A DNA stretch of 64,000 nucleotides from Actinomycetospora soli. GTDB lineage: Bacteria; Actinomycetota; Actinomycetes; Mycobacteriales; Pseudonocardiaceae. The notes beneath the pieces were generated by a model. It ran no database searches and was not told the origin of the DNA. It worked only from the letters and a program-made list of their open reading frames with translations. The translations under genes and the position numbers were made by a program. Location of the stretch: positions 124,001 through 188,000 of the forward strand of contig NZ_JAJNDA010000009.1 in the NCBI RefSeq assembly GCF_021026295.1, written 5' to 3'. How positions within the stretch are numbered: position 1 is the first letter of the stretch; each line of letters begins with the position of its first letter. This document shows, piece by piece, positions 9,868 to 25,061 of this stretch.

Positions 9868-11825
9868 CGATCGCCGACGCCCTCGCCGCCGGGACCCTGC
9901 TCGGCGACGGCGCGATGGGCACGCTCGCGCAGGCCACCGGGGTCCGCGCCGAGGGCGCGGTCAGCGAGCTCGTGCTGCTCGCCCCCGAGCTCGTCGGGGC
10001 GCTGCACCGGCGCTACCTCGACGCGGGCGCCGACGTGATCCAGACCCACACCTACGGCGCGAGCCGGGTCCGCCTGGCCCGCCACGGGCTGGCGCGGCAG
10101 GTGCACGAGATCAACGTCGTCGCCGCGCGCCTCGCCCGCGAGGCGCGGGACGACGCGGAGCGGCCGGCGTTCGTCGCCGGGTCCGTGTCGCCCGCGACGT
10201 CGCCGCGCCTCGCCGGGCCGGTCGACCCCGCCGCCGTCCGCAGCGCGCTGCGCGAGCAGGCCGCCGCGCTCGCCGAGGGCGGGGTGGACGTCCTGGTGTG
10301 CGAGACGTTCGCGCACGCCGACGAGCTGGCGGAGGCGGTCGAGGCGGTCCGGGAGGCGACCGACCTGCCGGTGATCGCCCAGGCGACGTTCGTCGAGGAG
10401 GACGGCGGGCCGGTGACGACCCTGGGGGAGAGCCCCGAGCACGTCGCACGGGTGGTGGGCGCGCTCCGGCCGGTGGCGCTGGGGTCGAACTGCACGCTCG
10501 GGCCGCAGGGGCTGCTCGCGGTGGTCCGGCGCCTGGCCGCCGCGGTGCCCGACGGGGTCCCGGTCACCGCCCTGCCCAACGCCGGTCTGCCGCACGTCGT
10601 GTCCGACCGCAGCGTGCGCTTCGCCTCCGACGCGTCCCACTTCGGGCGGTACGCCGCTCGTTACGCCGCCGCCGGCGCCCGGTTGGTCGGCGGGTGCTGC
10701 GGCACGACCCCGGCGCATGTGGCCGCGGCCGCCGCGGAGCTCGCCCGCGGCCCGGTCGTCGACGAGCCGCCGGTGGCGCTGCGCCCGGGTGCGGTGGTCG
10801 GGCGCGGCGCGGCTCCGTCGCCCTCCCCGGGTGGCAGCGACGCCTTCCTGCCACGCAGTCCGGGGCCGGGTCCGGGGCCGGGTCCGGCGCCGGGGGAGGG
10901 ACCGGGGCGCGGCGCGATCGCCCGCTGGCTCGACACGTCCCGGCGGGCGCCGCTGCTCGTCGCCGAGGTCACCGGCCCGGGCACCGACGACCTCGACGCG
11001 CACGTCGCCCGCGGTCGGGTCGCGCTGGCCGCGGGGGCGGAGGCACTGTGGGCCGGCCGCGAGCGCACGCGACGCCGCCGCTCGACGACGGCCGGCGTGG
11101 CCGCGGGTCTGCACGAGCTGCTCGACACCGACGTCGCGCTGACGGTCACCAGCTGGAACACCAGCCGGATGGCGTTGCAGGCCGACCTGCTCGGGCTCGA
11201 CGCGCTCGGGCTGCACACGATCGTCACCGAGACCGGCAACCCGCCGGTGCACGCCGACCGGGCCGTCCGCGACGGGGTGTGGGAGGTGGACGCGGTGGGC
11301 CTGGTCGGGCTCGCCGCCTCCCTCGCGGCGGGTGTCGACACGGACGGCGCGCGGGTGACGCCGTCGCCGTTCCGCGTGGGCGTGCGGGTCACCCCCGGCA
11401 CCGACGACCTGGAGCGCGAGATGCACCGGGTGCGGCTCAAGGTGCGGGCGGGCGCGGAGTTCCTCGTGACGCGCCCGGTCTACGAGCTGGACCGCCTGCG
11501 CCGGGTGCTGGGCGGGGTCGGGGTGCGGGTCCCCGTGCTGCTCTCGCTCGCCCCGCTGTCGGGGTTCGCCGAGGCCGAGCACCTGCGCCACGAGGTCCCC
11601 GACGTGGTCCTGCCCGACGCCGTCCTCGCGCGGATGCGGGCGGCCGGCGAGGACGCCGCGCCGGGCCTCGACCTCGCGGCCGACCTCGCCGCCGAGGCCC
11701 TGGCGGAGGGGCTGGTCGACGGCGTCGTCGTGCGCCGCCCCGGGCCGCCCGCCCTGCTCGCCGAGGCGGTGTCCCGCCTCGGCGCCGTGCTCACGGCCGG
11801 AGCACGCGCCCCTCGCGCGCGCTGA
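9864..11825 (+). CDS. homocysteine S-methyltransferase fused to a divergent methylenetetrahydrofolate reductase-like domain
   Basis: The 653-residue protein has two parts. Residues 1-295 form a homocysteine S-methyltransferase barrel with GDGAMGT and the three zinc cysteines in GSNCTLGP (Cys210) and VGGCCGTTP (Cys278, Cys279). Residues 355-653 align with the MTHFR barrel of YitJ-like fusions, ending LVTRPVYELDRL...LLSLAPLSGF. This half is degenerate: the ITGDPP motif is replaced by ETGNPP (Asn459 for the catalytic Asp), and the EIDPP strand reads EVTGPG. The linker (295-350) is Gly/Pro-rich and contains SDAFLPR, encoded by an F1 repeat half-element. The 3' end overlaps the convergent gene by 35 bp. 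Confidence 0.82.
   Translation: MTIADALAAGTLLGDGAMGTLAQATGVRAEGAVSELVLLAPELVGALHRRYLDAGADVIQTHTYGASRVRLARHGLARQVHEINVVAARLAREARDDAERPAFVAGSVSPATSPRLAGPVDPAAVRSALREQAAALAEGGVDVLVCETFAHADELAEAVEAVREATDLPVIAQATFVEEDGGPVTTLGESPEHVARVVGALRPVALGSNCTLGPQGLLAVVRRLAAAVPDGVPVTALPNAGLPHVVSDRSVRFASDASHFGRYAARYAAAGARLVGGCCGTTPAHVAAAAAELARGPVVDEPPVALRPGAVVGRGAAPSPSPGGSDAFLPRSPGPGPGPGPAPGEGPGRGAIARWLDTSRRAPLLVAEVTGPGTDDLDAHVARGRVALAAGAEALWAGRERTRRRRSTTAGVAAGLHELLDTDVALTVTSWNTSRMALQADLLGLDALGLHTIVTETGNPPVHADRAVRDGVWEVDAVGLVGLAASLAAGVDTDGARVTPSPFRVGVRVTPGTDDLEREMHRVRLKVRAGAEFLVTRPVYELDRLRRVLGGVGVRVPVLLSLAPLSGFAEAEHLRHEVPDVVLPDAVLARMRAAGEDAAPGLDLAADLAAEALAEGLVDGVVVRRPGPPALLAEAVSRLGAVLTAGARAPRAR
10831..10855 (+). 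repeat. F1 half-element inside a coding sequence
   Basis: The bases GACGC, one substitution, then TTCCTGCCACG match the right arm of the F1 palindrome seen at 789-812 and 30919-30940, apart from a 3-nt deletion after GGCAGC and a T-to-C change. It is translated in frame as part of GGSDAFLPR in the linker of the two-domain protein. Confidence 0.75.
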
Positions 11826-12177
11826 CGTCGAGCCGCACGACGGTGCCGTCGGCCGGGACGACCTCCCCGCGGTCGGTCTCGACGCCGTCGGTGAACACCG
11901 TGCTCATCACGCACGGGATGCCGAACTCGCGGGACAGGATCCCGAGGTGCGAGGTGGGCATGCCCTGCAGGGTGATCAGCCCCTTGATCCCGGAGGCGAG
12001 CGCCGGGGCCATGAACGTGGTCGTCCCGCCGCGGGAGATCGCGATGACGTCGGCGATGTCGCCCGACCCGACGAGGTCGAGGACGGCGTCGGGGGAGTCG
12101 AGCCAGCGCACCGGGCCCTCGACGACGGTTCCGGCGGTGTAGGCCGACGTCCCGCGGCCGATCTCGGTGTCGCTCAT
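11791..12177 (-). CDS. stand-alone phosphohistidine (PEP-utilizer mobile) domain protein
   Basis: A 128-residue protein consisting essentially of one swivelling phosphohistidine domain. The motif GMPTSHLGILSREFGIPCV corresponds to the GG.TSH.AI.AR..GIP signature of PEP synthase and pyruvate phosphate dikinase, with His77 as the predicted phosphate carrier. There is no ATP-grasp or PEP-binding domain, so it needs a partner such as the kinase-like protein at 23616-25061. Its ATG overlaps the stop of the F420 oxidoreductase gene (ATGA). It is the last gene of the minus-strand operon that begins at 17805. Confidence 0.82.
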   Translation of the reverse strand: MSDTEIGRGTSAYTAGTVVEGPVRWLDSPDAVLDLVGSGDIADVIAISRGGTTTFMAPALASGIKGLITLQGMPTSHLGILSREFGIPCVMSTVFTDGVETDRGEVVPADGTVVRLDVSAREGRVLRP

Positions 12178-13205
12178 GCGGACCTCCGGTAGTTCTCGAT
12201 GACGGGTGCGAGCTCGGCCGGGGTGGACGCGTGCATGATCACGCCGTCCACGCCCAGGTCGAACTGGGCGGCGACGGCCTCCGCGCACCGCGCGGGGCTG
12301 CCGGTGGCGGCGGGCGCCAACCAGTCCTCCGGCAGGACCGTCGCGATGTGCTCGATCTCCTCGCGGGTGGCGACGATGTCGGCCCACCCGCCGAGCCCGG
12401 ACACCACCGGGTCGGTGCGGAAGCGCTCCAGGTCGGCCGGGTCCCAGTCGTTGGTGCGGACCATGAGGTCGCCGTAGACCTGCAGGTAGGTCGCGAGGCG
12501 GGCCACGGTGCGCTTGAGGCGGACCTCCTCGGGGAGGTGGTCGGGCACCGTCGCGAAGCACGACCAGACCGCGACCGACGCCGGGTCGCGTCCGGCGCGC
12601 TCGGCCGCCTCCCGCACCGTGCGCACGCAGCGGACCGTGGTCTCGTCGGTGAAGAAGGTGTGCAGCACGACGGCGTCGGCCGCCCGGCCCGCCAGCGCCA
12701 GGGTCTGCGGCCCGAACGCGGTGAGGGCGATCGGGATGTCCTCGTCGAACGTCGGGTCGAGCTTCAGGGCGGGCCAGTGGCCGGCGGGCCCGTCGTGGTC
12801 GACGACTCTCTCCCCGCGCCAGAGCCGGCGCATGAGCCCGATGAAGTCCTCGAGCTGCGCGGTCGTCACCGGCGGCAGACCGAAGGCCTTCAGCTGCGGC
12901 GCGAGCCCGCGGCCCAGCCCGAGCGTGAACCGGCCCTCGGTGAGCCGGTGCATCGTCGTGGCCCAGGCGGCCGTGACCGCGGGGTGGCGGGTGTTGTGGT
13001 TGGTGGCCGCCGTCGCCACCCGCAGGTCCGTCGTGACCGCGCCCATCGCCCCGGAGAGCGACGCGGCCTCCTTGACGGAGAAGCGCTCGGAGAGGAAGGC
13101 CGTGCCGAACCCCAGGTCCTCGCCGAGGCGGACCTCGTCGAACATCTCCCGCGGCGAGGTCGGCTGGCCGCCGAGGGTGTAGAAGCCGAGCTCGGGGTGC
13201 CTCAC
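12174..13205 (-). CDS. LLM-class F420-dependent oxidoreductase
   Basis: The 343-residue protein has the luciferase-like monooxygenase TIM barrel: GFYTLGGQPTSPREMFDEV at the start, then LGFGTAFLSERF, TAATNHNTRHPAVTA and FTLGLGRG, all typical of F420-dependent members of actinobacteria. It probably reduces or oxidises an intermediate of the island pathway using coenzyme F420; FMN use cannot be excluded. Start is GTG, overlapping the stop of the upstream 448-residue gene (GTGA). Every gene in this operon is coupled to its neighbour in that way or lies within a few bases. Confidence 0.87.
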   Translation of the reverse strand: MRHPELGFYTLGGQPTSPREMFDEVRLGEDLGFGTAFLSERFSVKEAASLSGAMGAVTTDLRVATAATNHNTRHPAVTAAWATTMHRLTEGRFTLGLGRGLAPQLKAFGLPPVTTAQLEDFIGLMRRLWRGERVVDHDGPAGHWPALKLDPTFDEDIPIALTAFGPQTLALAGRAADAVVLHTFFTDETTVRCVRTVREAAERAGRDPASVAVWSCFATVPDHLPEEVRLKRTVARLATYLQVYGDLMVRTNDWDPADLERFRTDPVVSGLGGWADIVATREEIEHIATVLPEDWLAPAATGSPARCAEAVAAQFDLGVDGVIMHASTPAELAPVIENYRRSA

Positions 13206-14548
13206 GGTGCCGCCACCGGGTCCTGTCCGTGCACCGGGACGAAGCCGTCGCCGGCGATCAGGACGCGGGGCAGCAGCTCGGCGGCCGTGCCCGCGTCGGT
13301 CAGCAGGGGCCACGAGCGCTGCGCGAGCTCCCCGAGCGACTCCCGGGTCGGGAGCCGCAGGCCGAGCTCGGTCAGCGTGGTCTCGTCGGCGAGGCCCGCG
13401 AGCCGCAGGAAGGGCAGGACGAAGTCGAGGACGTACATCTGCACGCCCGCACTGATCAGCTCCTCGCGGGACATGCGGGCGTAGCGGGCGTACAGCCCCG
13501 CGTTCCGGGTCCGGGCCTCCCGGGTGATCGAGGCCAGCTCCTCCTCGCCGAGCAGGCGGACGTCGGGGGAGTCCCACCGGTCGCGGGCGTAGACGGCCGA
13601 CCCGACGAGGTGGGGCAGGTAGTCGCCCGGCTCCGCGAAGGTGGTCGACAGGTCGTTGACCGTGAACCGCATCCCCTCCGGCGGGCGGAAGAACAGCGCC
13701 TGGGTGACCGCGTGCGGGAGGCCGACCGAGGCGTCGAACCAGGGATAGGCCTCGTCGTGCAGGAAGTGGTCCCGGACGATCAGCACCGTGCCGTCCGGCT
13801 GCGGGTACGGCCCGGAGTCGCCGAGGCCGAGCCGGTTGTCCAGGTGCAGCAGGAACGCGAAGAGCTGCGTCATCGCGTTGAACGAGCGCCGCGCCGGCGC
13901 GGCGTCGGAGTCGGAGTCGAACCAGGTCACCTCGACGCGGAATCGCTCGAGCCACCCCGACCCGGCGAGCAGCGGGGCCGCGTAGCCGCGCCCGGTGGCG
14001 AACATCGGCCCCTCGTCGCCCCACATCCCGCGGTAGAGGCGGCGGGGGAACTGGAGGGCCTGCGCGAGTTCGGGTCCGCGGTCGGACGGGGAGGCGAGGC
14101 CGAGCCCGGTGGCGAAGCCGCGCCCGGTCAGGACCGGCATGCAGCAGCACCAGGCGTGCAGGAGGTTGACCTTGGTGCCGATCTCGCGGCGGGCCGTCGC
14201 GCCGAGCTCGACGACCCCGTCCGCGCCGATGCGGTCGGTGATGCGGGCGAAGACGCCGGGGTAGGCGTCGTACTGCTGGACGCCCGCGATCGTCTCGTAC
14301 TCCTGACGCGGGATCAGGCCGGACTCGCCCTCGGTCGCGCGGCTGCCGAGCATGTCCCAGACGTTCCAGCCGCCGTAGGCGATGAGCTCGTCGAGGTCGC
14401 CGTCGGCGAGCGCGGACGGGGCGAGCGAGCCGTCGGACAGGGTGAGGACGTCCCCGCGCAGCACCCCGGCCACGGCGTCGTGGCCGGCGGACCCGGCGGG
14501 GAAGCGGGTGCGGTAGTGGGCCAGCAGGTCGGCGAACGCGGCGCTCAC
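13202..14548 (-). CDS. unknown 448-residue protein of the island operon
   Basis: I do not recognise this family. The protein is soluble-looking, with many aromatic residues (YGGWNVWDMLG, EVTWFDSDSD, FLHDEAYPWFD). A striking cluster HAWCCCMPVLTGRGF has three consecutive cysteines at 134-136. It has no signal peptide and no nucleotide-binding motif. Its GTG start overlaps the stop of the APH-like gene and its stop overlaps the F420 oxidoreductase start, so it is made in step with both. Context suggests an enzyme or binding component of the same pathway. Coding is certain; function is open. Confidence 0.8.
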   Translation of the reverse strand: MSAAFADLLAHYRTRFPAGSAGHDAVAGVLRGDVLTLSDGSLAPSALADGDLDELIAYGGWNVWDMLGSRATEGESGLIPRQEYETIAGVQQYDAYPGVFARITDRIGADGVVELGATARREIGTKVNLLHAWCCCMPVLTGRGFATGLGLASPSDRGPELAQALQFPRRLYRGMWGDEGPMFATGRGYAAPLLAGSGWLERFRVEVTWFDSDSDAAPARRSFNAMTQLFAFLLHLDNRLGLGDSGPYPQPDGTVLIVRDHFLHDEAYPWFDASVGLPHAVTQALFFRPPEGMRFTVNDLSTTFAEPGDYLPHLVGSAVYARDRWDSPDVRLLGEEELASITREARTRNAGLYARYARMSREELISAGVQMYVLDFVLPFLRLAGLADETTLTELGLRLPTRESLGELAQRSWPLLTDAGTAAELLPRVLIAGDGFVPVHGQDPVAAP

Positions 14549-15642
14549 CGGCCACTCCGTCCGCGGGTCGCGGCGATGCCGCCCCAGTCGTGCGCGGCGG
14601 CGCAGTTCCGTTCGAGCAGGGCGAGGATCAGCGTGTTGACCTGCTCGACGTCGGGCAGCACGGCGATCGCCGCGGTCGTGATCATGAGCCCCGACAGGAC
14701 CTGCGTGCGGTAGTCCTCGAACGCCTCCTCGGCGGAGTAGCCGGGGGCGATCGCGGCGAACTGCGCCAGGTAGTCGGAGATGAGCCGGCGCTCGTGGGTG
14801 CGCCGCAGGTCGGCGTCGATGCTGCCGGAGAGGAAGTACCCGACGTCGTACATGGGGTTGCGCAGCCCGGTGACCTGCCAGTCGATCAGCACGGCCCCGG
14901 TCCCGCCGTCGACGGGCTCGAAGAGGACGTTGTCCACCCGCGGGTCGCCGTGGGTGAGGGTGAGCCGCGTCTGGGGCAGCAGGTGCCAGTCGTGCGCGAT
15001 CTCGCCGGCGGCCGCGACGACGTCGAGGTCGGCCCGCGGCAGGCGGTCGCGGAACCGGTCGGTGATGATCGCCGCGCCGCGGCGGATCGTCGGGCTCCAG
15101 TAGTCCGCGGCCTCCGTCATGCGGATCGGCCACGCCGGCGCGGTCGCCGGGTCCTGCGGCGTGAACGTCGCGTGCAGCCGGGCGAGCTGGGTCAGCACCG
15201 CGGCGGCCTCGTCGACGCCGCAGCCCGCGACCTGGTTGCCGGGCGTGGCCGCGGTGAGGTCCTCGATGACGAGGTTGATGTTGGTCTCGTCGCCGTCGAC
15301 GTGGAACAGGTGCGGGATCCGTGCCGCGTGCCGCTCGGTGATCGCGCGGTACCCGCCGATCTCCCGGTGGTAGGCGCCGCTGCCGAGCCCGTGCTGGTGC
15401 ACCTCCGGCGAGCGCGGCCGGAACTTCGCGACGACCGCGTCCGGCGCCCCGTCCGGCCGGGTGCCGTACTCCAGCGTGAGGTGGACGGTGTCGCTGACGT
15501 TGCCCGCGCCGATCGGGCGGGCGGTGACCCCGGTGACGACGACGCCCGGGAGGCGGGCCGCGAGCGCGGCGGAGAGCCACGCGGGGTCGATCTCGTCGGT
15601 GGTGTCGAGCACCGGGACGGCGGGGGAGCTGGTGATGCTCAT
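14545..15642 (-). CDS. APH-family phosphotransferase (aminoglycoside phosphotransferase-like kinase)
   Basis: A 365-residue small-molecule kinase of the APH/ACAD10-like fold. The catalytic loop is LTHGDPRVDNVLFE, with Asp as catalytic base and Asn as metal ligand; the metal motif is VLIDWQVTGLRNPMYD. The N-terminal lobe has the lysine strand DAVVAKF and IEDL hinge. Such proteins phosphorylate hydroxyl groups of small molecules or act with acyl-CoA dehydrogenases. In this operon it accompanies PEP-synthase-like phosphohistidine proteins, making phosphorylation chemistry a theme. The start is ATG; the stop overlaps the next gene. Confidence 0.83.
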   Translation of the reverse strand: MSITSSPAVPVLDTTDEIDPAWLSAALAARLPGVVVTGVTARPIGAGNVSDTVHLTLEYGTRPDGAPDAVVAKFRPRSPEVHQHGLGSGAYHREIGGYRAITERHAARIPHLFHVDGDETNINLVIEDLTAATPGNQVAGCGVDEAAAVLTQLARLHATFTPQDPATAPAWPIRMTEAADYWSPTIRRGAAIITDRFRDRLPRADLDVVAAAGEIAHDWHLLPQTRLTLTHGDPRVDNVLFEPVDGGTGAVLIDWQVTGLRNPMYDVGYFLSGSIDADLRRTHERRLISDYLAQFAAIAPGYSAEEAFEDYRTQVLSGLMITTAAIAVLPDVEQVNTLILALLERNCAAAHDWGGIAATRGRSGR

Positions 15643-15679
15643 GGCGCGCTCGATTCGCGGGCCGGGGGCTTCGGGAGCC

Positions 15680-16063
15680 TCAGGCCCAGGGCTCGGTGGA
15701 GTAGGGGGTGTTCCAGACGTCGGTGATGCGGCCGTCGACCACGCGGAAGACCTCGATCCCGGACAGCACCCGCTCCGCGGTGCGCCCGCGGGCGGTCCAG
15801 ACGAGGACGGCGTACTGGTCGTCACCGGCGAGGACCTCGGCGGTGAACCACGGCTGCCACTGCGGCAGGTCGGCCCGGATGCGGGCGATCTGGGCCTCGT
15901 GGTCGAGGACCCGGGTGCCGCCGGGGTCGTGGCGCACGACGCCGTCGGCGGTGATCTCACGGACGAGCTCCACGTCCCCCGCGTGGTAGATCTCGTCGAG
16001 GTAGCGGCGGACGACCGCCACCGGCCCCTCGGCCGGTGCGGCGGCGGGCCCGGTGGCGGTCAC
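15680..16063 (-). CDS. NTF2-like / SnoaL-like protein
   Basis: A 127-residue cone-fold protein: VVRRYLDEIYHAGDVELVREI, then VRHDPGG, DLPQWQPWFTAEVLAGDDQYAVLVWTARG and GIEVFRVVDGRITDVWNTPY. This is the SnoaL/ester-cyclase-like layout. Family members are isomerases, cyclases, dehydratases or simple ligand binders acting on small organic molecules. Start is GTG, 5 bp after the stop of the large phosphohistidine-domain gene, so it is part of that operon. Confidence 0.78.
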   Translation of the reverse strand: MTATGPAAAPAEGPVAVVRRYLDEIYHAGDVELVREITADGVVRHDPGGTRVLDHEAQIARIRADLPQWQPWFTAEVLAGDDQYAVLVWTARGRTAERVLSGIEVFRVVDGRITDVWNTPYSTEPWA

Positions 16064-16068: not shown

Positions 16069-17805
16069 TCAGCCGATGATCGTGACGGTCGCGGCGGTGC
16101 CGTCGACCTCGATGGTGGCGCCGTCCGGGATGCGCCCCGTGGCGTCGGTCGCGGACACCACGCACGGGATGCCGAGCTCGCGGCTGACGATCGCGGCGTG
16201 CGAGAACGGCGCGCCGACGTCGACCACGACGGCGGACGCGGCGACGAACAGCGGCGTCCAGGAGGGGTCGGTGATCGGCGCGACGAGGATGTCGCCCGGC
16301 TCCAGCTCGGCGTCGTCGTCGGGGTCGGTGAAGATCCGGGCGCGGCCGCGGGTCACGCCGGTGCAGCCGGAGACGCCCTGGATGACCTCGCCCGCCTGCG
16401 CGGCCGTGCGCGAGCGGTCGGAGCGGCGCTTCCACTCCGAGAGCGGCGGCGGGTCCCCGATCACCACGAACGGCGGCTCGTGGTCGAAGAGGTCGAGGTA
16501 GACCTTCTCCCGCTCGCGGACCGTGTCGGTGAACGCGCCCGGGTCGGCGAGGTAGGTGTCGAGCTCCTCGGCGAACACCATGTAGATCTGCTCGGGCGTG
16601 TCGAGGTGGCCGGCCGCGGCGCCGCGCCGGCCCAGCTCGAGGGCGGGGAGCCGCAGCTCGTGCACGAGCATCGCCGACGTCGTGCGGGAGCGCTCACGCC
16701 CGCGCAGCCACAGCGCCGCCGCGTGCAGGGCCGCCTCGAACTGTCCGGCCGCCTCGGCGTTCCCGGCGAGCATCTCGCGCATCGTCGCCGTCGCGGCCTC
16801 CCGGTCGGCGGCCCGGGCGGCGTTCTTGACGGCGGGTGCCTCGTCGTCGCCGACGGTGCGCATGCGGTCGACGGTGTGCAGCGCGAGCTCCGGGGCGAGG
16901 CCCCAGGTCTTCGAGCGCAGCTCCCACTCGCCCGGCCCGCGGAAGTCCCACTCGGCGAGGAACGCGTCGAGCTGGGCCCGGAAGGCGACGACGGCGGCCT
17001 CGTCGGACGCGGTGATCCGCTCGTACAGCCCGGACACCCCCGCGTCGAAGAGGGCGGCGACCGGCCCGGAGCGGGCGAGGCGACTGAGGCTCCACATCCC
17101 GTTCGACGGGCCGGCCGAGTCGACGTCGCCGATCCCGCTGACGAGGGTGAGGCCGAGCTCCGGGCGGCCGACGGCGGCCGCGACCTGCGCGACGGCGCCG
17201 AGGCCGACGCCCGACTTCAGGCTCGACTCGATGTGGTGCTGGAAGAACCGACGCTGCACGTCGCCGAACGAGCGCAGCCGGGCGACGAGGTCGGCGTCGG
17301 AGAGGGCGGCGATGTCGGGCCGGTCGGCCCGGATGGCCAGCACCTCGGCGCGGTCGGCGTCGTAGGCCGGGAGGCCCTGCGCGAGCAGGACCTCGTTCAT
17401 CAGCCAGGCGCCGGCCTTCTCGGAGTACGCGGGGTCCTCGTCGAAGTCCCGCTTCTCGCTCTCGTAGCTGGGGATGCCGGGCATGTCCCCGAAGTACTGC
17501 AGGTCGACGGCCTCGGCGCCCATCCCGGGCACGCGCACGCCGAACAGCCGCATCAGCGACATGTTGATGTACAGGTAGCTGCCGAACGCCGGGAGGATGT
17601 TGCGGGAGACGCCGCCGTCGTAGACGTCGTGGTCCCACACCCCGCAGGCGACGAAGGCGTCCCGCCACCCCGGCTCGAGGTACTCCTGGAAGCCGACCGA
17701 CGCGTTCAGCGGCGAGATGGGGTCCGGGAAGATCTCGCCGACGTTGGCCCGCGAGTACAGCGGGAACGTCTTCGAGGTGGCGTCGAAGATCGGCCAGTCG
17801 GGCAT
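16069..17805 (-). CDS. PEP-synthase-like protein: large N-terminal domain plus C-terminal phosphohistidine domain, no ATP-grasp
   Basis: The 578-residue protein ends in a PEP-utilizer swivelling domain (about 490-578) with GAPFSHAAIVSRELGIPCVV, predicted phosphohistidine His536. The N-terminal 430 residues contain no ATP-grasp motif and include SRANVGEIFPDPISPL and FFQHHIESSLKSGVG, resembling the substrate-side region of rifampicin phosphotransferase and of the central subunit of phenylphosphate synthase. It should accept phosphate on His536 from a separate ATP-grasp partner and pass it to an organic substrate. I chose ATG 17805 because AGGGAG lies 8 bp upstream; the frame continues to 17859 through a likely operator. 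It is first in the operon running to 11791. Confidence 0.8.
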   Translation of the reverse strand: MPDWPIFDATSKTFPLYSRANVGEIFPDPISPLNASVGFQEYLEPGWRDAFVACGVWDHDVYDGGVSRNILPAFGSYLYINMSLMRLFGVRVPGMGAEAVDLQYFGDMPGIPSYESEKRDFDEDPAYSEKAGAWLMNEVLLAQGLPAYDADRAEVLAIRADRPDIAALSDADLVARLRSFGDVQRRFFQHHIESSLKSGVGLGAVAQVAAAVGRPELGLTLVSGIGDVDSAGPSNGMWSLSRLARSGPVAALFDAGVSGLYERITASDEAAVVAFRAQLDAFLAEWDFRGPGEWELRSKTWGLAPELALHTVDRMRTVGDDEAPAVKNAARAADREAATATMREMLAGNAEAAGQFEAALHAAALWLRGRERSRTTSAMLVHELRLPALELGRRGAAAGHLDTPEQIYMVFAEELDTYLADPGAFTDTVREREKVYLDLFDHEPPFVVIGDPPPLSEWKRRSDRSRTAAQAGEVIQGVSGCTGVTRGRARIFTDPDDDAELEPGDILVAPITDPSWTPLFVAASAVVVDVGAPFSHAAIVSRELGIPCVVSATDATGRIPDGATIEVDGTAATVTIIG

Positions 17806-17868: not shown

Positions 17869-18549
17869 TCAAGCCTCGTCGCGCTCCACGAGGGGCAGCG
17901 CCCGGTGCCACACCTCCCCGACGGCGACCGCGAGCTGCTCGATGCGCTCGCGGCGGGGGGTCGCGGCGGGCAGGCCGATGTGCACGTAGGCGGTCTGCTC
18001 GATGGCCGAACCGAGCACGTCGGCGAGCAGGTCGAAGTCGGTCTCGGTGAGCTTCCCGCGGCGGTGCAGGTCGCGCAGCCAGCGCGCCGTGCGCTCCACG
18101 TAGTTGGCCCGCTGGGCGAGCCACAGCTCGGAGAAACCCTCGTCGGTACTCGTGGCCGCGGCCTCGCGCATCACCCGCAGGATGCGCCGGTTGCGGGCGT
18201 ACGAGGTCAAGTACGCGCTGGTGAGGGCCACGAGCGTGGCCCGGTCGGTGCCGTCGCCGGTGCGGACGGTGCGGTGCGTCGAACGGGTCAGCTCGTCGAG
18301 GCTGGGGCGCAGCGCCTCGAGGAAGATCTCGTCCTTGCTCGCGAAGTGCCGGTAGAAGTTGCCCTGCGAGACGCCGGCCGCGAACACGATGTCCGCGATC
18401 CGGGTCCGGCTGTAGCCGTACTCGGAGAAGCAGGTGACCGCTGCCTCGAGCAGCTCCGAGCGGGTGCGCAGACCGCGGGTGTTCTTGCCGCGCCGGGCGG
18501 GGGTCGACCCGGCGTCGGCGCCTCCGGGATCGCTGTCCGCAACGCTCAC
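17869..18549 (-). CDS. TetR/AcrR-family regulator of the island
   Basis: The 226-residue protein has a TetR DNA-binding domain at about residues 28-75: RSELLEAAVTCFSEYGYSRT, then IADIVFAAGVSQGNFYRHFASKDEIF. The C-terminal ligand domain is FadR/KstR2-like in length and seems to have no special motif. It lies directly upstream of the phosphohistidine operon on the same strand, with the ACGATGCG dyad between them, and is divergent from the acyl-CoA synthetase gene. It could therefore control both sides. GTG start at 18549. Confidence 0.87.
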   Translation of the reverse strand: MSVADSDPGGADAGSTPARRGKNTRGLRTRSELLEAAVTCFSEYGYSRTRIADIVFAAGVSQGNFYRHFASKDEIFLEALRPSLDELTRSTHRTVRTGDGTDRATLVALTSAYLTSYARNRRILRVMREAAATSTDEGFSELWLAQRANYVERTARWLRDLHRRGKLTETDFDLLADVLGSAIEQTAYVHIGLPAATPRRERIEQLAVAVGEVWHRALPLVERDEA

Positions 18550-18691
18550 CGGGCGCCTCCTCGGGGTCGAGCCGTGATGCCGTAATCACCCTAGCTCAGG
18601 TCCCGACCTGCGAGAACGTGTTCGGGACTGCCGCTAGATGCGACTCGTCGTATACATTCTCGCCGTCCACGGCCGTGAGGGGAGTCAGCTG

Positions 18692-20239
18692 GTGTATCCC
18701 GGCAGCGTCGCCCGGCACGCGCCGGACCGTGCGGCGGTGGTCCTCGCCGAGACCGGCGAGACCGTCACCTACCGCGACCTCGACGAGCGCAGCGCCCGTC
18801 TCGCGACCGCACTGCGGGCGCGGGGCCTGGGCGACGGCGACGCGGTCGTGGTCCTGCTCGGCAACGACGTGCACTGGGGCGAGGTCTGCTGGGCGTGCTG
18901 GCGCAGCGGCCTCGTGCTGGCCGCGGTGAACCACCACCTCGCCGCCCGGGAGCTGCGCGCGGTACTCGCCGAGGCCGCGCCGCGGGCCGTCGTCACCACC
19001 GCCGACCTGCTGCCCGCAGCGGCGGCGGCGCTCGAGGGTGCCGAGGTCTCGTGGCTCGTCGTCGGGACGGTCCCCGACGACGCCCCCGCGGGGACGGTGG
19101 CGCTCGACGAGCTGGTCGCGGACACCGGGCGCGACCCGGAGCTCCCGGAGAGCGCGGGCGGCCGGCTGCTCTTCAGCTCGGGTACGACCGGACTGCCCAA
19201 GCCCGCGCGGGTGGCCCCGCGCGACGTGCATCCCGACGAGGTCGGGGTGCGCTCGGCCGGCCTGATGCGCACGCTCGGGTTCAGCGAGCCCGGGGCGGGG
19301 GTCGACGTGCTGCTCGTCCCCGGCCCGGCCTACCACGCGGGCCCGATCGGCTTCCTGCAGTCGGTGCACCAGGCCGGTGGCACCGTCGTGCTGATGCGCC
19401 GCTTCGACGCGGCGGCCGCGCTCGCCGCGATCGAGCGGTACCGCGTCACGCACAGCCAGTGGGTCCCGACGATGTTCGTCCGGCTGCTGCGCCTGCCCGA
19501 CGAGGTGAGGGCGGGCCACGACCTCTCGTCCCACCGCGTGGCGGTGCACGCCGCCGCGCCGTGCCCGCCGGCGGTGAAGCGGGCGGTGCTCGAGTGGTGG
19601 GGCCCGATCGTCCACGAGTACTACGGCGCGAGCGAGGGCTACGGGCGGACCGTGATCGGGCCGCAGGAGTGGCTCGCGCACCCCGGTTCGGTGGGGCGGG
19701 CGGTCGGCAGCGGCGTGTCGATCGCGGACGAGGCGGGACGGCCGCTGCCGTCCGGGCAGGTCGGGACGGTCTGGTTCAGCGCGCCGGGTGCTGCGGAGCC
19801 GGACCGCGCCCCGGACGGCGCGGCCGACCTCGCCGCGACGCCGGGCTGGGGCGCGGTCGGCGACCTCGGCTACCTGGACGACGACGGGTATCTGTATCTC
19901 ACCGGCCGGGCGAGCCAAATGATCATCACCGGCGGCGTCAACGTCCATCCCCGCGAGGTCGAGCTCGTGCTCCTCGAGCACCCGGAGGTCGACGACGTCG
20001 CCGTGGTCGGCGTGCCCGACGACGAGTTCGGGGAACGGGTGACCGCCGTCTTCGTGCCCGTCCCGGACGCCGCGCCCGACCTGGCGGACCGGCTCGTGGC
20101 CTGGGCCCGGGACCGGCTCGCGTACGTCAAGTGCCCCCGCACCGTGCACCTGGTGGAGGACCTGCCCCGCAACGACGCCGGGAAGGTCCTGCACCGCGTC
20201 CTCGTCGACCGCCTGACCCCCCACCCCGGAGGCTCGTGA
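18692..20239 (+). CDS. AMP-forming acyl-CoA synthetase
   Basis: A 515-residue adenylate-forming ligase. The P-loop is LLFSSGTTGLPKPARV, with YYGASEGYG (A5), GDLGYLDDDGYLYLTGR (A7/A8) and the C-terminal catalytic lysine in NDAGKVLHR. It activates a carboxylic acid to its CoA thioester; chain type is not readable, but relatives handle fatty, aromatic or terpenoid-derived acids. The GTG at 18692 has GGGGAG 8 bp upstream and fits the family N-terminus, better than the longer start at 18638. A TATACA sequence at 18650-18655 may be a -10 element. Divergent from the TetR gene. Confidence 0.87.
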   Translation: MYPGSVARHAPDRAAVVLAETGETVTYRDLDERSARLATALRARGLGDGDAVVVLLGNDVHWGEVCWACWRSGLVLAAVNHHLAARELRAVLAEAAPRAVVTTADLLPAAAAALEGAEVSWLVVGTVPDDAPAGTVALDELVADTGRDPELPESAGGRLLFSSGTTGLPKPARVAPRDVHPDEVGVRSAGLMRTLGFSEPGAGVDVLLVPGPAYHAGPIGFLQSVHQAGGTVVLMRRFDAAAALAAIERYRVTHSQWVPTMFVRLLRLPDEVRAGHDLSSHRVAVHAAAPCPPAVKRAVLEWWGPIVHEYYGASEGYGRTVIGPQEWLAHPGSVGRAVGSGVSIADEAGRPLPSGQVGTVWFSAPGAAEPDRAPDGAADLAATPGWGAVGDLGYLDDDGYLYLTGRASQMIITGGVNVHPREVELVLLEHPEVDDVAVVGVPDDEFGERVTAVFVPVPDAAPDLADRLVAWARDRLAYVKCPRTVHLVEDLPRNDAGKVLHRVLVDRLTPHPGGS

Positions 20240-20871
20240 TGGAGATGGTGCTGATCCGCCACGGGCGGCCGGCGGACGCGGCGCAGTCCGACCCCGGCCT
20301 CGCCCCGGACGGGTACGCGGCGGCCGAGCGGCTCGCCGAGCACCTCGCCGGCGGGGCCATCCGGCGCCCGGACGCCGTGTGGTCGAGCCCCATGCAGCGC
20401 GCGCTGGACACCGCGGCGCCCCTCGCCGAGCGCCTCGGCCTGCCGGTCCGCACCGACGAGCGGCTGCGCGAGTTCGACCACGGGGTGCCCGTCTACGTGG
20501 CCGCGGACCGGACGACGGACGCCGAGGAGCGCGCCGAGATGTGGCGGGCGCTGGAGACGGGTCGCTGGGGGGAGCACCGGTTCGACCCGGAGGCGTTCTG
20601 CCGCGACGTGGACGCGGCCCTCACCGACATCGCGACCGAGCACCCCCGCGGGGTCGTCGCCGTGGTGTGCCACTCGGGCGTCATCAACGCGCACCTGTGC
20701 TCGGTGCTGGAGCGACCCCTCAGCATGTTCTGCCAGCTGGAGCACACGTCGTTCAGTCGGCTGCTGGTCTCGCCGCAGGGCAAGCGGCTGCTGCACACCC
20801 TGAACGAGACGGCGCACCTGCAGCTCGCGGCCCGCCCCGATCCGAGCGAAGGGGCCCTTCGGTCGGTCTAG
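20239..20871 (+). CDS. histidine phosphatase superfamily protein
   Basis: The 210-residue protein has the phosphoglycerate-mutase-like motif VLIRHGRPAD with the nucleophilic His, SSPMQRALDTAAPLA, and the second His in VVCHSGVINAHL. It removes phosphate from a small metabolite or protein. The ATG at 20239 and a GTG at 20236 both fit; the latter makes a GTGA overlap with the acyl-CoA synthetase stop. The last residues (SEGALRSV) are encoded by the F4 palindrome, so the C-terminus appears to have been shaped by a repeat. In an island with phosphoryl-transfer proteins, a phosphatase may act on the same phosphorylated intermediates. Confidence 0.84.
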   Translation: MEMVLIRHGRPADAAQSDPGLAPDGYAAAERLAEHLAGGAIRRPDAVWSSPMQRALDTAAPLAERLGLPVRTDERLREFDHGVPVYVAADRTTDAEERAEMWRALETGRWGEHRFDPEAFCRDVDAALTDIATEHPRGVVAVVCHSGVINAHLCSVLERPLSMFCQLEHTSFSRLLVSPQGKRLLHTLNETAHLQLAARPDPSEGALRSV

Positions 20872-20897
20872 TCGACCGGAGGGGCCCTTCGGTCGAC
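20845..20897. repeat. F4 palindrome at a convergent junction, overlapping a stop codon
   Basis: GAGCGAAGGGGCCCTTCGGT (20845-20864) and the dyad GTCGACCG / CGGTCGAC (20871-20878, 20890-20897), which surrounds AGGGGCCCT, form an imperfect pair of palindromes. The element shares its core with 36662-36708. It spans the stop codon of the histidine phosphatase gene. Confidence 0.75.
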
Positions 20898-20909
20898 ACG
20901 GAGGAGCCG

Positions 20910-21530
20910 TCAGCCCTCGTCCGCGGCGTCCCGCGTGCGGCCGAGCGAGAGGATGAGGTCCTGGTGGAGCTCCATCCAGATGTCGTGGTAGGAGTCCTTC
21001 ATCGGCGCTGTGAACGCCGATCGCTCCCCGTCGCGGACGCGCTCCAGGGCGGCCGAGAGCCGCGGCCGGTAGCCCGACATGCGGTCGACGGCCGCGCCGA
21101 CCCCGTCCAGGACCTCGCCCGCGCGCCCGTCGACCTCGGCGAGCCGGGACACGACGCCGTCGTCGTACGTGGCGTCGGTGTGGTCGTTCGGCGCGTCGTC
21201 GTCCCCGCGGGTCTGCCACGCGTGGCAGACCGCCTTGAAGTCGCCGTTGAGCGGCAGGAACGCCTGGTAGGCCTGCTCGAGGGCGGCGCGGGCGTCGTCG
21301 TCGACCGAGCCGGCGACGAGCTCGGCGTGGGCCGCCTTCCCGTCCTTGGTCAGGCTCCATCCCTCGATCCGGCCGCCGGATCGGTGCCGGACGAGGCCCT
21401 CGGCGCCGAGCTCGTCGAGGGCCGCCGCGATCTCGTCCTCGGGCGCCGCGACCACGGCGGCCGCGACGGTCGCACTGGTCATCCCCTTGACGCGCAGGGC
21501 GTGCAGGGCGCGGAACCGGGCGTCGTCCAT
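20910..21530 (-). CDS. winged-helix protein, possible regulator of the P450 operon
   Basis: A 206-residue protein. Residues 1-70 read as a winged helix (RFRALHALRVKGMTSATVAA, EIAAALDELGAEGLVRHRSG, WSLTKDGKAAHAEL), similar to MarR-like or PadR-like DNA-binding domains. The remaining 130 residues are helical, with QAFLPLNGDFKAVCHAWQTR, and match no family I recognise. The ATG has an excellent ribosome site (AGGAGGAGCG). It is divergent from the P450-SDR-dikinase operon, and an inverted repeat lies between them (21554-21588), so control of that operon is likely. Confidence 0.72.
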   Translation of the reverse strand: MDDARFRALHALRVKGMTSATVAAAVVAAPEDEIAAALDELGAEGLVRHRSGGRIEGWSLTKDGKAAHAELVAGSVDDDARAALEQAYQAFLPLNGDFKAVCHAWQTRGDDDAPNDHTDATYDDGVVSRLAEVDGRAGEVLDGVGAAVDRMSGYRPRLSAALERVRDGERSAFTAPMKDSYHDIWMELHQDLILSLGRTRDAADEG

Positions 21531-21553
21531 CGCTCCTCCTCGAGCTGTTTTGT

Positions 21554-21588
21554 GAACGCTAGTTGCATCTGGGGCGAGACTAGTGTTC
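21554..21588. promoter_or_regulatory. inverted repeat in the divergent promoter of the P450 operon
   Basis: GAACGCTAGT (21554-21563) and ACTAGTGTTC (21579-21588) are complementary at 9 of 10 positions with a 15-bp spacer. The pair lies between the winged-helix gene and the P450 gene. Confidence 0.55.
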
Positions 21589-21637
21589 CCTGTCACCACC
21601 CGGCAAGCAGCGGCCGGCCGATTCCGGGGAGCCACGG

Positions 21638-22846
21638 GTGACCACCGCGAGTATCGACCTCACCGACGTGTCGGCCTTCGCGCAGGGACGCGACGCCGAC
21701 ATCCTCCGCGCACTGCGCGACGAGGACCCGCTGCACTGGAACCCCGAGCCCGACGGCGGGCCCGGCTTCTGGTCGGTGACCCGCTACGCCGACATCCGGC
21801 GCATCGCCACCGACCCCGGCGTCACCGTCCGCGAGGGCACCCAGATCCCGAGCCGGCGGGCGGAGGGCGACGGCGACCGCAGCATCCACCACCTCGACGC
21901 GCCGGAGCACATGAAGCTCCGTCGCCTCGTCATCCCGGCGCTGCGCCCGGCCGCGGTGGCCCGGTGGGAGGACGAGATCACGCGGGTGGTCGACGAGCTG
22001 ATCGACCCGTGCGTCGGCGCGGGCGAGTTCGACCTGGTCCCGACGATCTCCGCGCAGCTGCCGCTGCTGGTGCTCGGCCGCCTCCTCGGGGTGCCCGCCG
22101 AGGACTGCCCGGACATCCTGCGCTGGACGAACCAGATGGCGTCCGCCGACCCGGAGTACGCGGCCGGCCCCGAGACCGCGGTGACCGCGCGCGACGAGGT
22201 CTTCGCCTACTTCCGCGAGCTCGAGGCCGCGCGGCGGGAGGCCCCCGACGACGGGCTCGTCTCGGTGCTCGCGCAGGCGGAGGTCGACGGCGGGCCCCTC
22301 ACGCGCGGCCAGCTCGACGCCTACTACCTGATCCTCACGGTCGCCGGGAACGAGACGACCCGGAACCTGCTCTCCGGCGGGGTGCACGCGCTGAACCTGG
22401 AGCCGGACGCGTGGCCCTGGGTCACCGCCGACCCGGCCGCCCGGCTCCGGCCGGCGATCGAGGAGATGCTGCGCTGGGTCTCCCCGGTGCTGTGCATGCG
22501 GCGCACCGCGACCGAGGCGCTGGAACTGCACGACCGGGCGATCGCCCCTGGCGACAAGGTCGTCATGTGGTTCGTCTCGGGCAACCGCGACGACCGCGTC
22601 TACACCGACCCCGACCGCTTCCGCCCCTGGCGCGACGAGGCCGACCACCTCGGCTTCGGCTGGGGTGCCCACGCCTGCCTGGGCGCCCACCTCGCGCGGC
22701 TGGAGGCGACCGTGTTCTTCCGCCGCCTCGCCGAGCGGGGGCTGACCGTCACGCAGACCGGCGAGATCGACCGGCTCGCGTCGAACTTCTTCCGCGGCAC
22801 CAAGCACCTCCCGGTGCGGATCGACGAGGGGGGCGCGCGTGCCTGA
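21638..22846 (+). CDS. cytochrome P450
   Basis: The 402-residue P450 has the I-helix oxygen motif ILTVAGNETTRNLL, the ExxR motif EEMLRW and the haem loop FGWGAHACLGAHLARLE with the cysteine thiolate ligand. It is soluble, of the bacterial CYP type that needs a separate ferredoxin and reductase, neither of which is next to it. The SIHHLDAPEHMKLRRL segment is typical of actinobacterial steroid- or terpene-related CYPs, but the substrate is unknown. GTG start with GGGGAG upstream. The SDR gene overlaps its end by 8 bp. Confidence 0.9.
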   Translation: MTTASIDLTDVSAFAQGRDADILRALRDEDPLHWNPEPDGGPGFWSVTRYADIRRIATDPGVTVREGTQIPSRRAEGDGDRSIHHLDAPEHMKLRRLVIPALRPAAVARWEDEITRVVDELIDPCVGAGEFDLVPTISAQLPLLVLGRLLGVPAEDCPDILRWTNQMASADPEYAAGPETAVTARDEVFAYFRELEAARREAPDDGLVSVLAQAEVDGGPLTRGQLDAYYLILTVAGNETTRNLLSGGVHALNLEPDAWPWVTADPAARLRPAIEEMLRWVSPVLCMRRTATEALELHDRAIAPGDKVVMWFVSGNRDDRVYTDPDRFRPWRDEADHLGFGWGAHACLGAHLARLEATVFFRRLAERGLTVTQTGEIDRLASNFFRGTKHLPVRIDEGGARA

Positions 22847-23606
22847 GACCGCGCTCGTCACCGGCGCCGCCTCCGGGATCGGCGCCGCCCTCGTCGGGCT
22901 CCTGCTCGACGACGGGTGGCGCGTGCTGGCGCTCGACCGCGCCCCGGTGCCGGCCCGTCCCGGCGTCGAGGCCCTCACCTGCGACCTCGCCGACCCCGCC
23001 CTGATCGCCGCCGTGGTCGCGCGGGTCCGCGGTGAGGTGTCGGCGGTCGCGCACGTCGCGGGCGTCCCGGGCACCGCGCCCGCGCCGACCGTGCTCGCGG
23101 TCAACGTGCTCGCGCCCCGGCTGCTGATCGAACCGCTGCTCGGCGAGGTCGACGCCGTCGTCACCGTCGCCTCCGTGGCCCAGCACCGCAGCCCCGAACC
23201 CGACGACGTCCTCGACGAGCTCCTGGCCTGCGCCGACGCCGCGGATCTCGACGCCTGGCTGGCCCGTCACCCGCACGACGGTCCGGCGGCCTACGACACC
23301 TCGAAGAAGGCGCTCGTGCGCTGGACGCGGCTCGCCGCCGGGCGCCACGTCGGCGGGACCCGGCTCAACGCGGTGAGCCCCGGCCCCGTCGAGACCCCGA
23401 TCCTCGGCGACTTCCGCACCTCCATGGGCGAGGCCGACATCGACCGGGCCGCGGCCGCGGTCGGGCGGCACGGCCGCCCGGACGAGGTCGCCGCCGCCGT
23501 CGCCTTCCTGCTCGGCCCGTCCGCCTCGTGGGTCCGCGGCGTCGACCTCCCGGTCGAGGGCGGCCTGCTCGCGGCCCGCGCCGCCGCCACCGTCCCGACG
23601 ACCTGA
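22839..23606 (+). CDS. short-chain dehydrogenase/reductase
   Basis: A 255-residue SDR with the cofactor loop TGAASGIGAAL, the strand CDLADP (Asp binding adenine), the catalytic Tyr and Lys in YDTSKKAL, and SPGPVETPIL. The usual NNAG motif is changed to HVAGVPG. It has the classical layout of alcohol dehydrogenases acting on secondary alcohols or steroids. Between P450 and dikinase, it probably oxidises the hydroxyl made by the P450. GTG start within the end of the P450 gene. Confidence 0.88.
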   Translation: MPETALVTGAASGIGAALVGLLLDDGWRVLALDRAPVPARPGVEALTCDLADPALIAAVVARVRGEVSAVAHVAGVPGTAPAPTVLAVNVLAPRLLIEPLLGEVDAVVTVASVAQHRSPEPDDVLDELLACADAADLDAWLARHPHDGPAAYDTSKKALVRWTRLAAGRHVGGTRLNAVSPGPVETPILGDFRTSMGEADIDRAAAAVGRHGRPDEVAAAVAFLLGPSASWVRGVDLPVEGGLLAARAAATVPTT

Positions 23607-23615
23607 GGAGCCACC

Positions 23616-25061
23616 GTGACCACCGGCCTCGACGCCGCCGTCGTCGCCCTCGACGGCACCTGCCCGTACGGCCGCGAGCGGCTGGGAGGCAAGGCGCACT
23701 CCGTGAACCGGATGCGCTCCCTCGGCCTGCCCGGCCCGCCCGCCTTCGCCATCACGACCGACGTCTGCGCGCGCTACCGGGAGTCCGGGCTGCCCGACGA
23801 GGTGTGGGCGGGGGTCGTCGACGCGATGCGCGCCCTCGAGACCGACACCGGGTACCGGTTCGCGGACCCCTCCTCCCCGCTGCTCGTCTCGGTCCGCTCC
23901 GGGGCGGCACAGAGCATGCCCGGGATGATGGACACCGTCCTCAACCTGGGGCTGACCCCGGCCGCGGTCGAGGGGCTCGCGGAGGCGACCGGCGACCGCC
24001 GGTGGGCGGAGGACACCGACGCCCGCTTCCGACGCTCGTACGCCGAGGTCGTCGACCCGGCGGGCCCGCCCGAGGACCCGTGGGAGCAGCTGCGCGCGGC
24101 GATCGGCGCGGTGTTCCGCTCCTGGGACAGCCCCCGCGCGCGGGTCTACCGCGACCGGTACGGCCTCGACCACGACGCCGGGACGGCCGTGACCGTGCAG
24201 GCCATGGTCTTCGGCAACCGGGACGAGGCCTCGGGGACCGGCGTCGCGTTCAGCCGCGACCCGTCCACGGGTGAGTCGGTGCTCTACGGCGAGTGGGTAC
24301 GCGGCGGGCAGGGCGAGGACGTCGTCTCCGGCACGGTGACCCCCGTGCCGATCGCGACCTTCGCCGACGAGCTGCCGGCGCTGCACGCGGAGCTGGTCGA
24401 GGCCGCGACGGTCCTCGAGGGTGAGTACCGGGACCTCGTGGACGTCGAGTTCACCGTGGAGTCCGGGCGGCTGTACGTGCTGCAGGCCCGGGCCGGGAAG
24501 CGCTCCCCGACGGCCGCCCTGCGCGTCGCCGTCGAACTCGCGACGGCGGGGATGATCACGCGCGAGGAGGCGCTGGGTCGCCTGACCGCCGACCACGCCC
24601 GCGGGCACCTGGAGGCGTCGGCGACGACGGGCGGCGAGACGGTTGCGAGCGGCATCGGCGCGGGACCCGGGGTGGCGTCCGGGGTGGTCGTCACCGATCC
24701 CGACGACGCGCTGGACGCCGACGGACCGGTGGTCCTGGTGCGGCCGTTCACCGCGCCCGACGACGTGCCCGCGATGTACGCCTCGGTCGCGGTGGTCACC
24801 GAGCACGGGGGCACGACCTCGCACGCCGCCCTGGTGGCGCGTGAGGCCGGGCTGCCCTGCGTCGTCGGCTGCGGGGACGGCGTGGTCGCCGCGCTGGAGG
24901 GGCGGGTCGTCACCGTCGACGGCGCGCGCGGCGTGGTCCTCGAGGGCGACGTCACCGGTGAGACCGGTCCGCACGCGGCCGCCCCGTGGGAGTCCACCCT
25001 GCTGGAGTGGACCGGCGCGACGACGCCCGCGGACCTGCCCGACCGGCTCGGGACGAACTAG
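23616..25061 (+). CDS. ppdK: truncated pyruvate phosphate dikinase: ATP-grasp plus phosphohistidine domain, no PEP/pyruvate barrel
   Basis: The 481-residue protein has the PPDK nucleotide-binding half (GGKAHSVNRMRSLGLPGPPA, VSVRSGAAQSMPGMMDTVLN, QAMVFGNRDEASGTGVAFSRD) and the phosphohistidine domain, VVTEHGGTTSHAALVARE, with His403. Full-length PPDK is about 870 residues and adds a C-terminal PEP/pyruvate barrel, absent here. Similar short PpdK proteins of roughly this size are known from mycobacteria. It can probably phosphorylate its own His403 from ATP but must hand the phosphate to something other than pyruvate. The phosphohistidine proteins at 11791 and 16069 are candidate partners. Its stop shares bases with the stop of the opposite gene. 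Confidence 0.85.
   Translation: MTTGLDAAVVALDGTCPYGRERLGGKAHSVNRMRSLGLPGPPAFAITTDVCARYRESGLPDEVWAGVVDAMRALETDTGYRFADPSSPLLVSVRSGAAQSMPGMMDTVLNLGLTPAAVEGLAEATGDRRWAEDTDARFRRSYAEVVDPAGPPEDPWEQLRAAIGAVFRSWDSPRARVYRDRYGLDHDAGTAVTVQAMVFGNRDEASGTGVAFSRDPSTGESVLYGEWVRGGQGEDVVSGTVTPVPIATFADELPALHAELVEAATVLEGEYRDLVDVEFTVESGRLYVLQARAGKRSPTAALRVAVELATAGMITREEALGRLTADHARGHLEASATTGGETVASGIGAGPGVASGVVVTDPDDALDADGPVVLVRPFTAPDDVPAMYASVAVVTEHGGTTSHAALVAREAGLPCVVGCGDGVVAALEGRVVTVDGARGVVLEGDVTGETGPHAAAPWESTLLEWTGATTPADLPDRLGTN

Follow-up and report, generated by a model that had tools for sequence, protein, structure and literature searches.

A candidate split small-molecule dikinase with a VadK-like half-PPDK donor in Actinomycetospora soli

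Two recent and separate stories meet at the locus described here: that of the two-component phenol dikinases HpeHI, CreHI and PpsAB, and that of VadK (Rv1127c), a truncated pyruvate phosphate dikinase (PPDK) whose phosphate target is open. In the first, the nucleotide-binding motif of HpeI, CreI and PpsB is nearer to that of phosphoenolpyruvate (PEP) synthase than to that of PPDK, according to passages of PMC12167813. In the second, VadK autophosphorylates on the histidine of its phosphohistidine (swivel) domain, and to purify it, VadK was co-expressed with Rv1126c, its partner in the operon, and then freed from it by a 2 M NaCl wash (parts of PMC13400623). A 64,000-nucleotide stretch of the Actinomycetospora soli genome (contig NZ_JAJNDA010000009.1, positions 124,001 to 188,000; the window) holds a gene cluster that suggests, with a probability of roughly 0.6, a split small-molecule dikinase with exchangeable parts, in which a half-PPDK donor, a winged helix-turn-helix (wHTH) adaptor and an acceptor, P578, would act with oxidation downstream. 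Among known systems it would best be placed with the two-component small-molecule dikinases, as a novel form that uses a VadK-type donor.

Three proteins of the cluster (Table 1) carry a swivel domain, as a preliminary description of this DNA had noticed. Matches to Pfam PF00391 together with a check of the histidines place the swivel histidine at His536 in the 578-residue P578 (domain at residues 502-570, E 1.6e-22), at His77, the sole histidine, in the 128-residue HdomS (residues 52-95, E 4.1e-9) and at His403 in a 481-residue protein (residues 371-439, E 1.9e-23) that also matches PPDK_N (E 9.3e-43). Pfam finds no PEP barrel in any of the three, which sets them apart from PEP synthase and PPDK, and no PPDK_N in P578, which separates it from single-chain rifampin phosphotransferase (RPH). 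What P578 holds is an RPH substrate domain followed by a swivel, the composition of the H component in HpeHI, CreHI and PpsAB, and it shares only 28% identity over 357 aligned columns with the HpeH-like protein of the same genome. That genome contains an HpeH/HpeI-like pair of 594 and 391 residues (L033:4419-7375, C11:17500-33000; L and G numbers are our labels for loci and genomes), with a Rieske-type gene a few kilobases downstream and a P450 gene beyond, which is probably a second, independent small-molecule dikinase.

The 481-residue protein is, to judge by its sequence, a half-PPDK like VadK and not a protein like PpsB or HpeI. In the PDB it is PPDK chains that match it best (E 1.8e-107), and its match to 9goj, a 387-residue chain named phosphoenolpyruvate synthase, reaches E 2e-4 only; where an I component is a swivel-less ATP-grasp protein of PEP synthase (PEPS)/RPH type, this one is of PPDK type with the swivel present. 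In an alignment with a long PPDK-like protein that this genome also encodes, K22, R92, D321, E323, Q335, R337 and H455 (C. symbiosum numbering) are retained and the chain stops before the PEP barrel, which leaves the ATP site and swivel histidine of a PPDK without its PEP/pyruvate domain, as in VadK-type proteins. In a hand-picked sample of 12 short-type donors, 11 of them the window's own or among the 47 short ones counted below and the twelfth a protein with a long frame (L118), K22, R92, E323, Q335, R337 and the swivel histidine are present in 12/12 and an intact PEP site in none; L106, whose donor is spread across two frames, is not in the residue table. The preliminary description had recognised the layout of phenylphosphate synthase in the cluster. 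Here, however, the ATP subunit is of another type, a truncated PPDK that bears a swivel itself, and membership of the phenylphosphate synthases as such is rejected on that ground.

Could the swivel of the donor be dispensable? Its ATP-grasp part might phosphorylate the P578 swivel in trans, with the donor's own swivel a leftover and no histidine-to-histidine transfer, an alternative that we consider unlikely if far from negligible. HpeHI and PpsAB are described as working by such direct charging in passages of PMC12167813, and the P578 swivel is intact, its His536 being invariant in 23/23 aligned relatives. However, the swivel histidine of the donor is itself invariant in 16/16 aligned orthologues, which would be unexpected for a leftover, and it is also retained in both ATP- and PEP-type donors (see below).

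The split arrangement is conserved. Scanning genome contigs with P578, which detects close relatives only (58-93% identity), gave 32 loci, and members of Gordonia, Rhodococcus, Nocardia, Pseudonocardia, Nocardioides and Microbacterium also have the cluster; in the same scan the A. soli genome proves very near that of Actinomycetospora chiangmaiensis (93% identity in P578). Twenty-five loci have at least 9 kb upstream of the P578 gene and can be assessed. The short PPDK is present in 24 of them, the wHTH gene in 25, the acyl-CoA ligase in 25, P450 in 24, a short-chain dehydrogenase/reductase (SDR) in 24, an aldehyde dehydrogenase (ALDH) in 22, TetR in 20, a SurE phosphatase in 18, the LLM and APH genes in 12 each and HpaB in six, and none of the 25 has an HpeI-like or HpeH-like gene. 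L016 is the sole assessable locus lacking the PPDK, which is cut there by the locus edge. Over all 32 loci the counts are 24 for PPDK, 24 for ALDH, 21 for SurE and six for HpaB, with the remainder in Table 1; L018, an 18.7-kb contig of a metagenome-assembled genome (MAG) with 8.4 kb upstream, is outside the 25 and has SurE only of these genes. Searches of 28 whole genomes (those of L008, L009, L026 and L032 being left out) matched the PPDK profile in 28/28, with an open frame below 800 residues in 27, the exception being a Labilithrix MAG. ATP-grasp and His-domain genes, which the description had said must co-occur elsewhere if it was to stand, thus do so. That three swivel proteins lie within 13 kb as unrelated neighbours, by chance, is next to inconceivable: the whole genome has eight PF00391 matches to draw on, but the cluster is conserved across several genera and its parts are found fused.

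The mobilizable 581-kb plasmid pA of Rhodococcus pyridinivorans P23 (L129) also carries the cluster, with genes annotated as pyruvate phosphate dikinase, coniferyl-alcohol dehydrogenase, aldehyde dehydrogenase, P450, AMP-binding protein, SurE, PEP-utilizing enzyme, phosphotransferase, LLM and 4-hydroxyphenylacetate-3-hydroxylase-type protein; the wHTH protein is annotated there as a MarR regulator. On plasmid pRZP2 of Rhodococcus sp. ZPP (L130), genes for a P450, acyl-CoA dehydrogenase and histidine phosphatase accompany two distant relatives of P578 that lie 10 kb from each other, with no match to a PPDK-type donor or the wHTH protein in the stretch.

The wHTH protein, which has no Pfam match, keeps close company with donors. 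A profile search of 394 genomes of the class (E<=1e-12) finds it in 78, at 86 places, and at 71 of these a PPDK-like or PEPS-like ATP-grasp gene lies within 2 kb, on the same strand in 59 pairs, with a median gap of 102 bp. These 71 donors comprise 47 short PPDK-type, 12 long-frame (more than 250 residues of open frame past the donor match) and 12 PEPS-like proteins; the donor is farther away in the window, L052 and L055, and at 12 of the 86 places no donor was found in the stretch examined. The association extends to fusion: among 120 listed relatives of the 481-residue protein, all six matches of 715-726 residues, five of them from Nocardia, have the wHTH domain at the C-terminus, and in G361 PPDK and wHTH share one 934-residue frame. 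Because it is fused to the short PPDK and to swivel-U448 proteins (below) and is found near donors, we count the wHTH protein as part of the machine, a conserved companion or fused domain by the evidence of gene arrangement. The description had listed it among the coupled genes; that it is only a regulator is rejected on the same fusions and proximity.

Within the wHTH protein, at about residues 180-192, S180, Y181, H182, D183, W185, M186, E187, L188, H189 and D191 are invariant in 13 aligned members, a stretch unusual for a plain DNA-binding regulator. The PEPS-like genes near wHTH (L075, L076, L078, L080, L082, L083, L084, L089, L099, L102, L110 and L113) encode short ATP-grasp plus swivel proteins, a third donor type, with 11 divergent from the wHTH gene and one on the same strand. 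No P578- or U448-like gene appears near these 12 in the stretch examined, where acceptors were counted only within about 9.5 kb, the P578-like ones at more than 120 bits and near full length, and many contigs are short, which makes such absence weak.

Acceptor and wHTH also occur together at the level of genomes. Full-length P578-like genes, taken by eye from the matches listed as those spanning the model at more than 350 bits, are present in 18 of the 394 genomes. The wHTH gene is found in 18/18 of these and in 60/376 others (Fisher 4e-14, kinship uncorrected), or by genus in 9/9 versus 27/129 (Fisher 2e-6, kinship uncorrected).

A mirror image of the half-PPDK bears on what the partners recognise. 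In 11 genomes the donor next to the wHTH gene is a long PPDK relative that has lost the ATP site and kept the PEP site. Aligned with the short donors, 11/11 retain the swivel histidine and, at the PEP site, R561, R617, E745, N768, D769 and C831; K22, Q335 and R337 are lost in all 11, and R92 and E323 in 10, both being retained in L048. A full-length but distant P578 relative is present in all 11 genomes, among the matches listed, and in six it lies within the stretch examined. Long-frame donors occur in 11/18 genomes with P578 versus 0/60 wHTH-bearing genomes without it (Fisher 4e-9), residue motifs having been checked in only part of the latter. In L118 and L138, where swivel, U448, wHTH and PPDK genes stand in a row, the ATP-site motifs are largely present and the PEP barrel is decayed, and these donors are possible evolutionary intermediates. 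On the parsimonious reading of ATP-only and PEP-only donors, what acceptors and wHTH recognise would be the core with its swivel, however charged, and not the energy source. In a variant of direct charging, the acceptor swivel may visit either donor site in trans. Seven loci have Rieske oxygenase genes close to P578 paralogues or PEP-type donors.

HdomS and U448 point to a second enzyme of the same design. The 448-residue U448 has no Pfam match and no PDB match at E<=0.001, and its AlphaFold model has a mean pLDDT of 91.7. Among 120 listed relatives of 331, 61 are U448 alone, 49 are swivel-U448-wHTH proteins of about 770 residues, nine are swivel-U448 and one is U448-wHTH. Since 58 of the 120 thus carry a swivel fused N-terminally, HdomS would belong with U448: the two are probably parts of a second split dikinase, U448 being its substrate domain and HdomS its swivel, here a separate chain. 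In a phylum sample of 296 genomes, the four others with U448 each have a separate swivel-like frame no more than 0.5 kb from it, and swivel, U448, wHTH and PPDK genes stand in a row in G085 and G546. The idea of HdomS as a third carrier serving P578 is rejected on the strength of the fusions.

These parts can be assembled into a mechanism. The half-PPDK would bind ATP, and probably Pi as in PPDK, and phosphorylate its own His403, as the similar VadK has been shown to do in the literature. The 206-residue wHTH protein would bind this donor and dock it on the acceptor, and phosphate would move to P578, most likely onto His536, whose swivel would deliver it to the hydroxyl of a small molecule in the RPH-like domain; HdomS and U448 would form a second acceptor, with another substrate domain and the same donor. 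The side chain of the phosphorylated compound would be oxidised by the P450, the SDR and, in most relatives, ALDH. Together with the ligase they would make a CoA thioester from a methyl or alkyl group, and the phosphate would be removed, by SurE in most relatives. Our best guess is a phenolic or alkylphenol-like substrate, a phenol being favoured because HpaB genes occur in 6/32 loci. In the 4-cresol route of Corynebacterium glutamicum a P450 acts on a phosphorylated phenol. The pathway proposed here resembles that route, which starts with CreHI (in the relevant part of PMC12167813). Alternatively, P578 might serve biosynthesis, phosphorylating a substrate for condensation like the PigC/RedH-type ligases, against which it scores 123 bits (PigC) and 127 bits (RedH). 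Both scores are far under the cut-offs, and the P450-SDR-ALDH-ligase neighbours, with HpaB in some loci among the genes named there, are those of catabolic oxidation, which makes ligation a very improbable reading.

Table 1. Genes of the candidate dikinase cluster, with positions in the window
Product	Position	Strand	Remarks
HdomS, stand-alone swivel domain, 128 aa, His77	11791..12177	-	PF00391; probable detached swivel partner of U448
F420-dependent LLM oxidoreductase (TIGR03857), accessory	12174..13205	-	406 bits, cut-off 218; 14/32 related loci
U448, 448 aa, probable substrate domain of second split dikinase	13202..14548	-	no Pfam match; fusions
APH/EcKL-like kinase, accessory	14545..15642	-	PF02958, PF01636; 13/32 loci
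SnoaL/NTF2-like protein, accessory	15680..16063	-	PF12680; 13/32 loci
P578, RPH-like substrate domain and C-terminal swivel, His536	16069..17805	-	proposed acceptor, small-molecule kinase component
TetR-family regulator	17869..18549	-	PF00440; 21/32 loci
Acyl-CoA ligase	18638..20239	+	NCBIfam best match FadD4, 482 bits, below cut-off 850; 29/32 loci
wHTH protein, 206 aa, proposed relay adaptor subunit	20910..21530	-	27/32 loci; donor proximity; fusions
Cytochrome P450	21638..22846	+	best PDB matches mostly CYP125, CYP124 lower; 26/32 loci
SDR, near coniferyl-alcohol dehydrogenase subfamily	22839..23606	+	204 bits, cut-off 242; 26/32 loci
Short PPDK (VadK-like), 481 aa, ATP-grasp and swivel, His403	23616..25061	+	NF004531, 598 bits, cut-off 456
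PF13350 tyrosine-phosphatase-like protein, gene beside donor, membership uncertain	25367..26146	-	homologue beside donor in 1/32 loci (L003)

The minus-strand genes run in the order TetR, P578, SnoaL-like, APH/EcKL-like, U448, LLM and HdomS, with gaps of -4 to +63 bp and a 4-bp overlap at each of the HdomS-LLM, LLM-U448 and U448-APH junctions. P450, SDR and PPDK are coupled on the plus strand (gaps of -8 and +9 bp), and the wHTH gene is divergent from that of the P450. Pfam (APH/EcKL-like, SnoaL/NTF2-like, TetR, SDR and PF13350), TIGR03857 and NCBIfam/PDB matches (ligase and P450) bear out the accessory genes that the description listed; its list overlooked U448, which proved important. The outline it drew, a split dikinase-like phosphotransfer system that couples phosphorylation to oxidation, is right and has gained support from the recurrence of the short PPDK, and it erred on the type of ATP subunit and on the roles of HdomS and the wHTH protein. 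By eye, a cobalt/nickel-type ABC transporter set adjoins the cluster at 26204-28765, and on its other side, at 9864-11825, lies a fusion of a homocysteine methyltransferase-like protein with a methylenetetrahydrofolate-reductase-like domain.

Several observations weigh against a dedicated split dikinase of this composition. In the window the donor and acceptor operons are on opposite strands with 5.8 kb between their starts, a distance of 2.1 kb separates the wHTH gene from the donor, and neither ALDH nor SurE was found in the cluster, with one SurE match elsewhere in the genome. In four of the six sampled genomes with a close orthologue (G012, G035, G069 and G053), P578 is distant from the wHTH gene or the two are on separate contigs, and G053 has its listed short PPDK on yet another contig, apart from both. 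D321 is replaced in 5/12 of the sampled short-type donors, by E in one and Y in four. Within the limits on acceptor counts given above, 43 of the 59 PPDK-type donor places (38 short and five long-frame) have neither a P578-like nor a U448-like gene in the stretch, which suggests that the donor-wHTH pair has other uses, and one of the other 16, acceptor-bearing places is an epimerase-swivel protein (L037). HdomS and U448 occur in only 1/32 cluster loci besides the window, and three of the four other U448 genomes of the phylum sample have only long-frame PPDK matches (894-980 residues). Finally, parts of PMC13400623 describe VadK as a regulatory histidine kinase and propose that it controls the methylcitrate cycle. 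The 481-residue protein could likewise be a VadK-type kinase regulating the cluster enzymes, with P578 charged by another ATP-grasp protein such as the HpeI-like one of L033, which the same genome encodes beside its own HpeH-like partner. We hold this to be improbable, since a close HpeI homologue (more than 600 bits) is present in only 4/28 genomes with the P578 gene, 11/28 have no match to the single HpeI-like query used at E<=1e-10, and the short PPDK is in the cluster at nearly every assessable locus.

More broadly, and tentatively, the donor pair and its acceptors might belong to a so far undescribed modular actinobacterial phosphorelay, with a logic like that of the PEP-dependent phosphotransferase system (PTS), in which a half-PPDK charged by ATP or PEP and an adaptor of wHTH fold would serve interchangeable swivel-bearing kinases, RPH-like or U448, phosphate passing from histidine to histidine and then to the metabolite; VadK and its partner would be an orphan donor pair. 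The protein that bears a MarR-regulator annotation and the unannotated U448 domain family would each gain a proposed function, and the cluster would point to a pathway of oxidation, carried by a mobilizable Rhodococcus plasmid too, that may act on phosphorylated intermediates. The likeness to Enzyme I and HPr of the PTS is one of mechanism and unproven, a PEP- or ATP-charged swivel handing phosphate to another histidine carrier; it differs in that a Pfam scan of the cluster proteins, made without a dedicated PTS search, shows no PTS sugar-transport family.

Among the nearer systems, RPH is one chain with its own ATP-grasp domain, which P578 lacks. HpeHI, CreHI and PpsAB share with this locus an H component that joins an RPH-like substrate domain to a swivel histidine, a separate ATP-grasp protein and, as proposed here, a phosphorylation that opens aromatic catabolism. 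Their ATP-grasp protein is PEPS/RPH-like (as given in passages of PMC12167813), whereas here it is PPDK-type with its own swivel and a wHTH partner. VadK with Rv1126c offers the other half of the comparison, a truncated PPDK of ATP-grasp and swivel, without the PEP domain and with a neighbouring partner gene. By architecture and position, the 481-residue protein would be the counterpart of Rv1127c and the wHTH family that of Rv1126c, the latter correspondence by position only; a PPDK-type donor lies within 2 kb at 59 of the 86 wHTH places. Unlike VadK, for which the passages of PMC13400623 propose no small-molecule acceptor, the donor described here belongs to a catabolic cluster with a swivel-bearing acceptor, and if the modular relay holds, the phosphate target of VadK would gain a concrete class of candidates.

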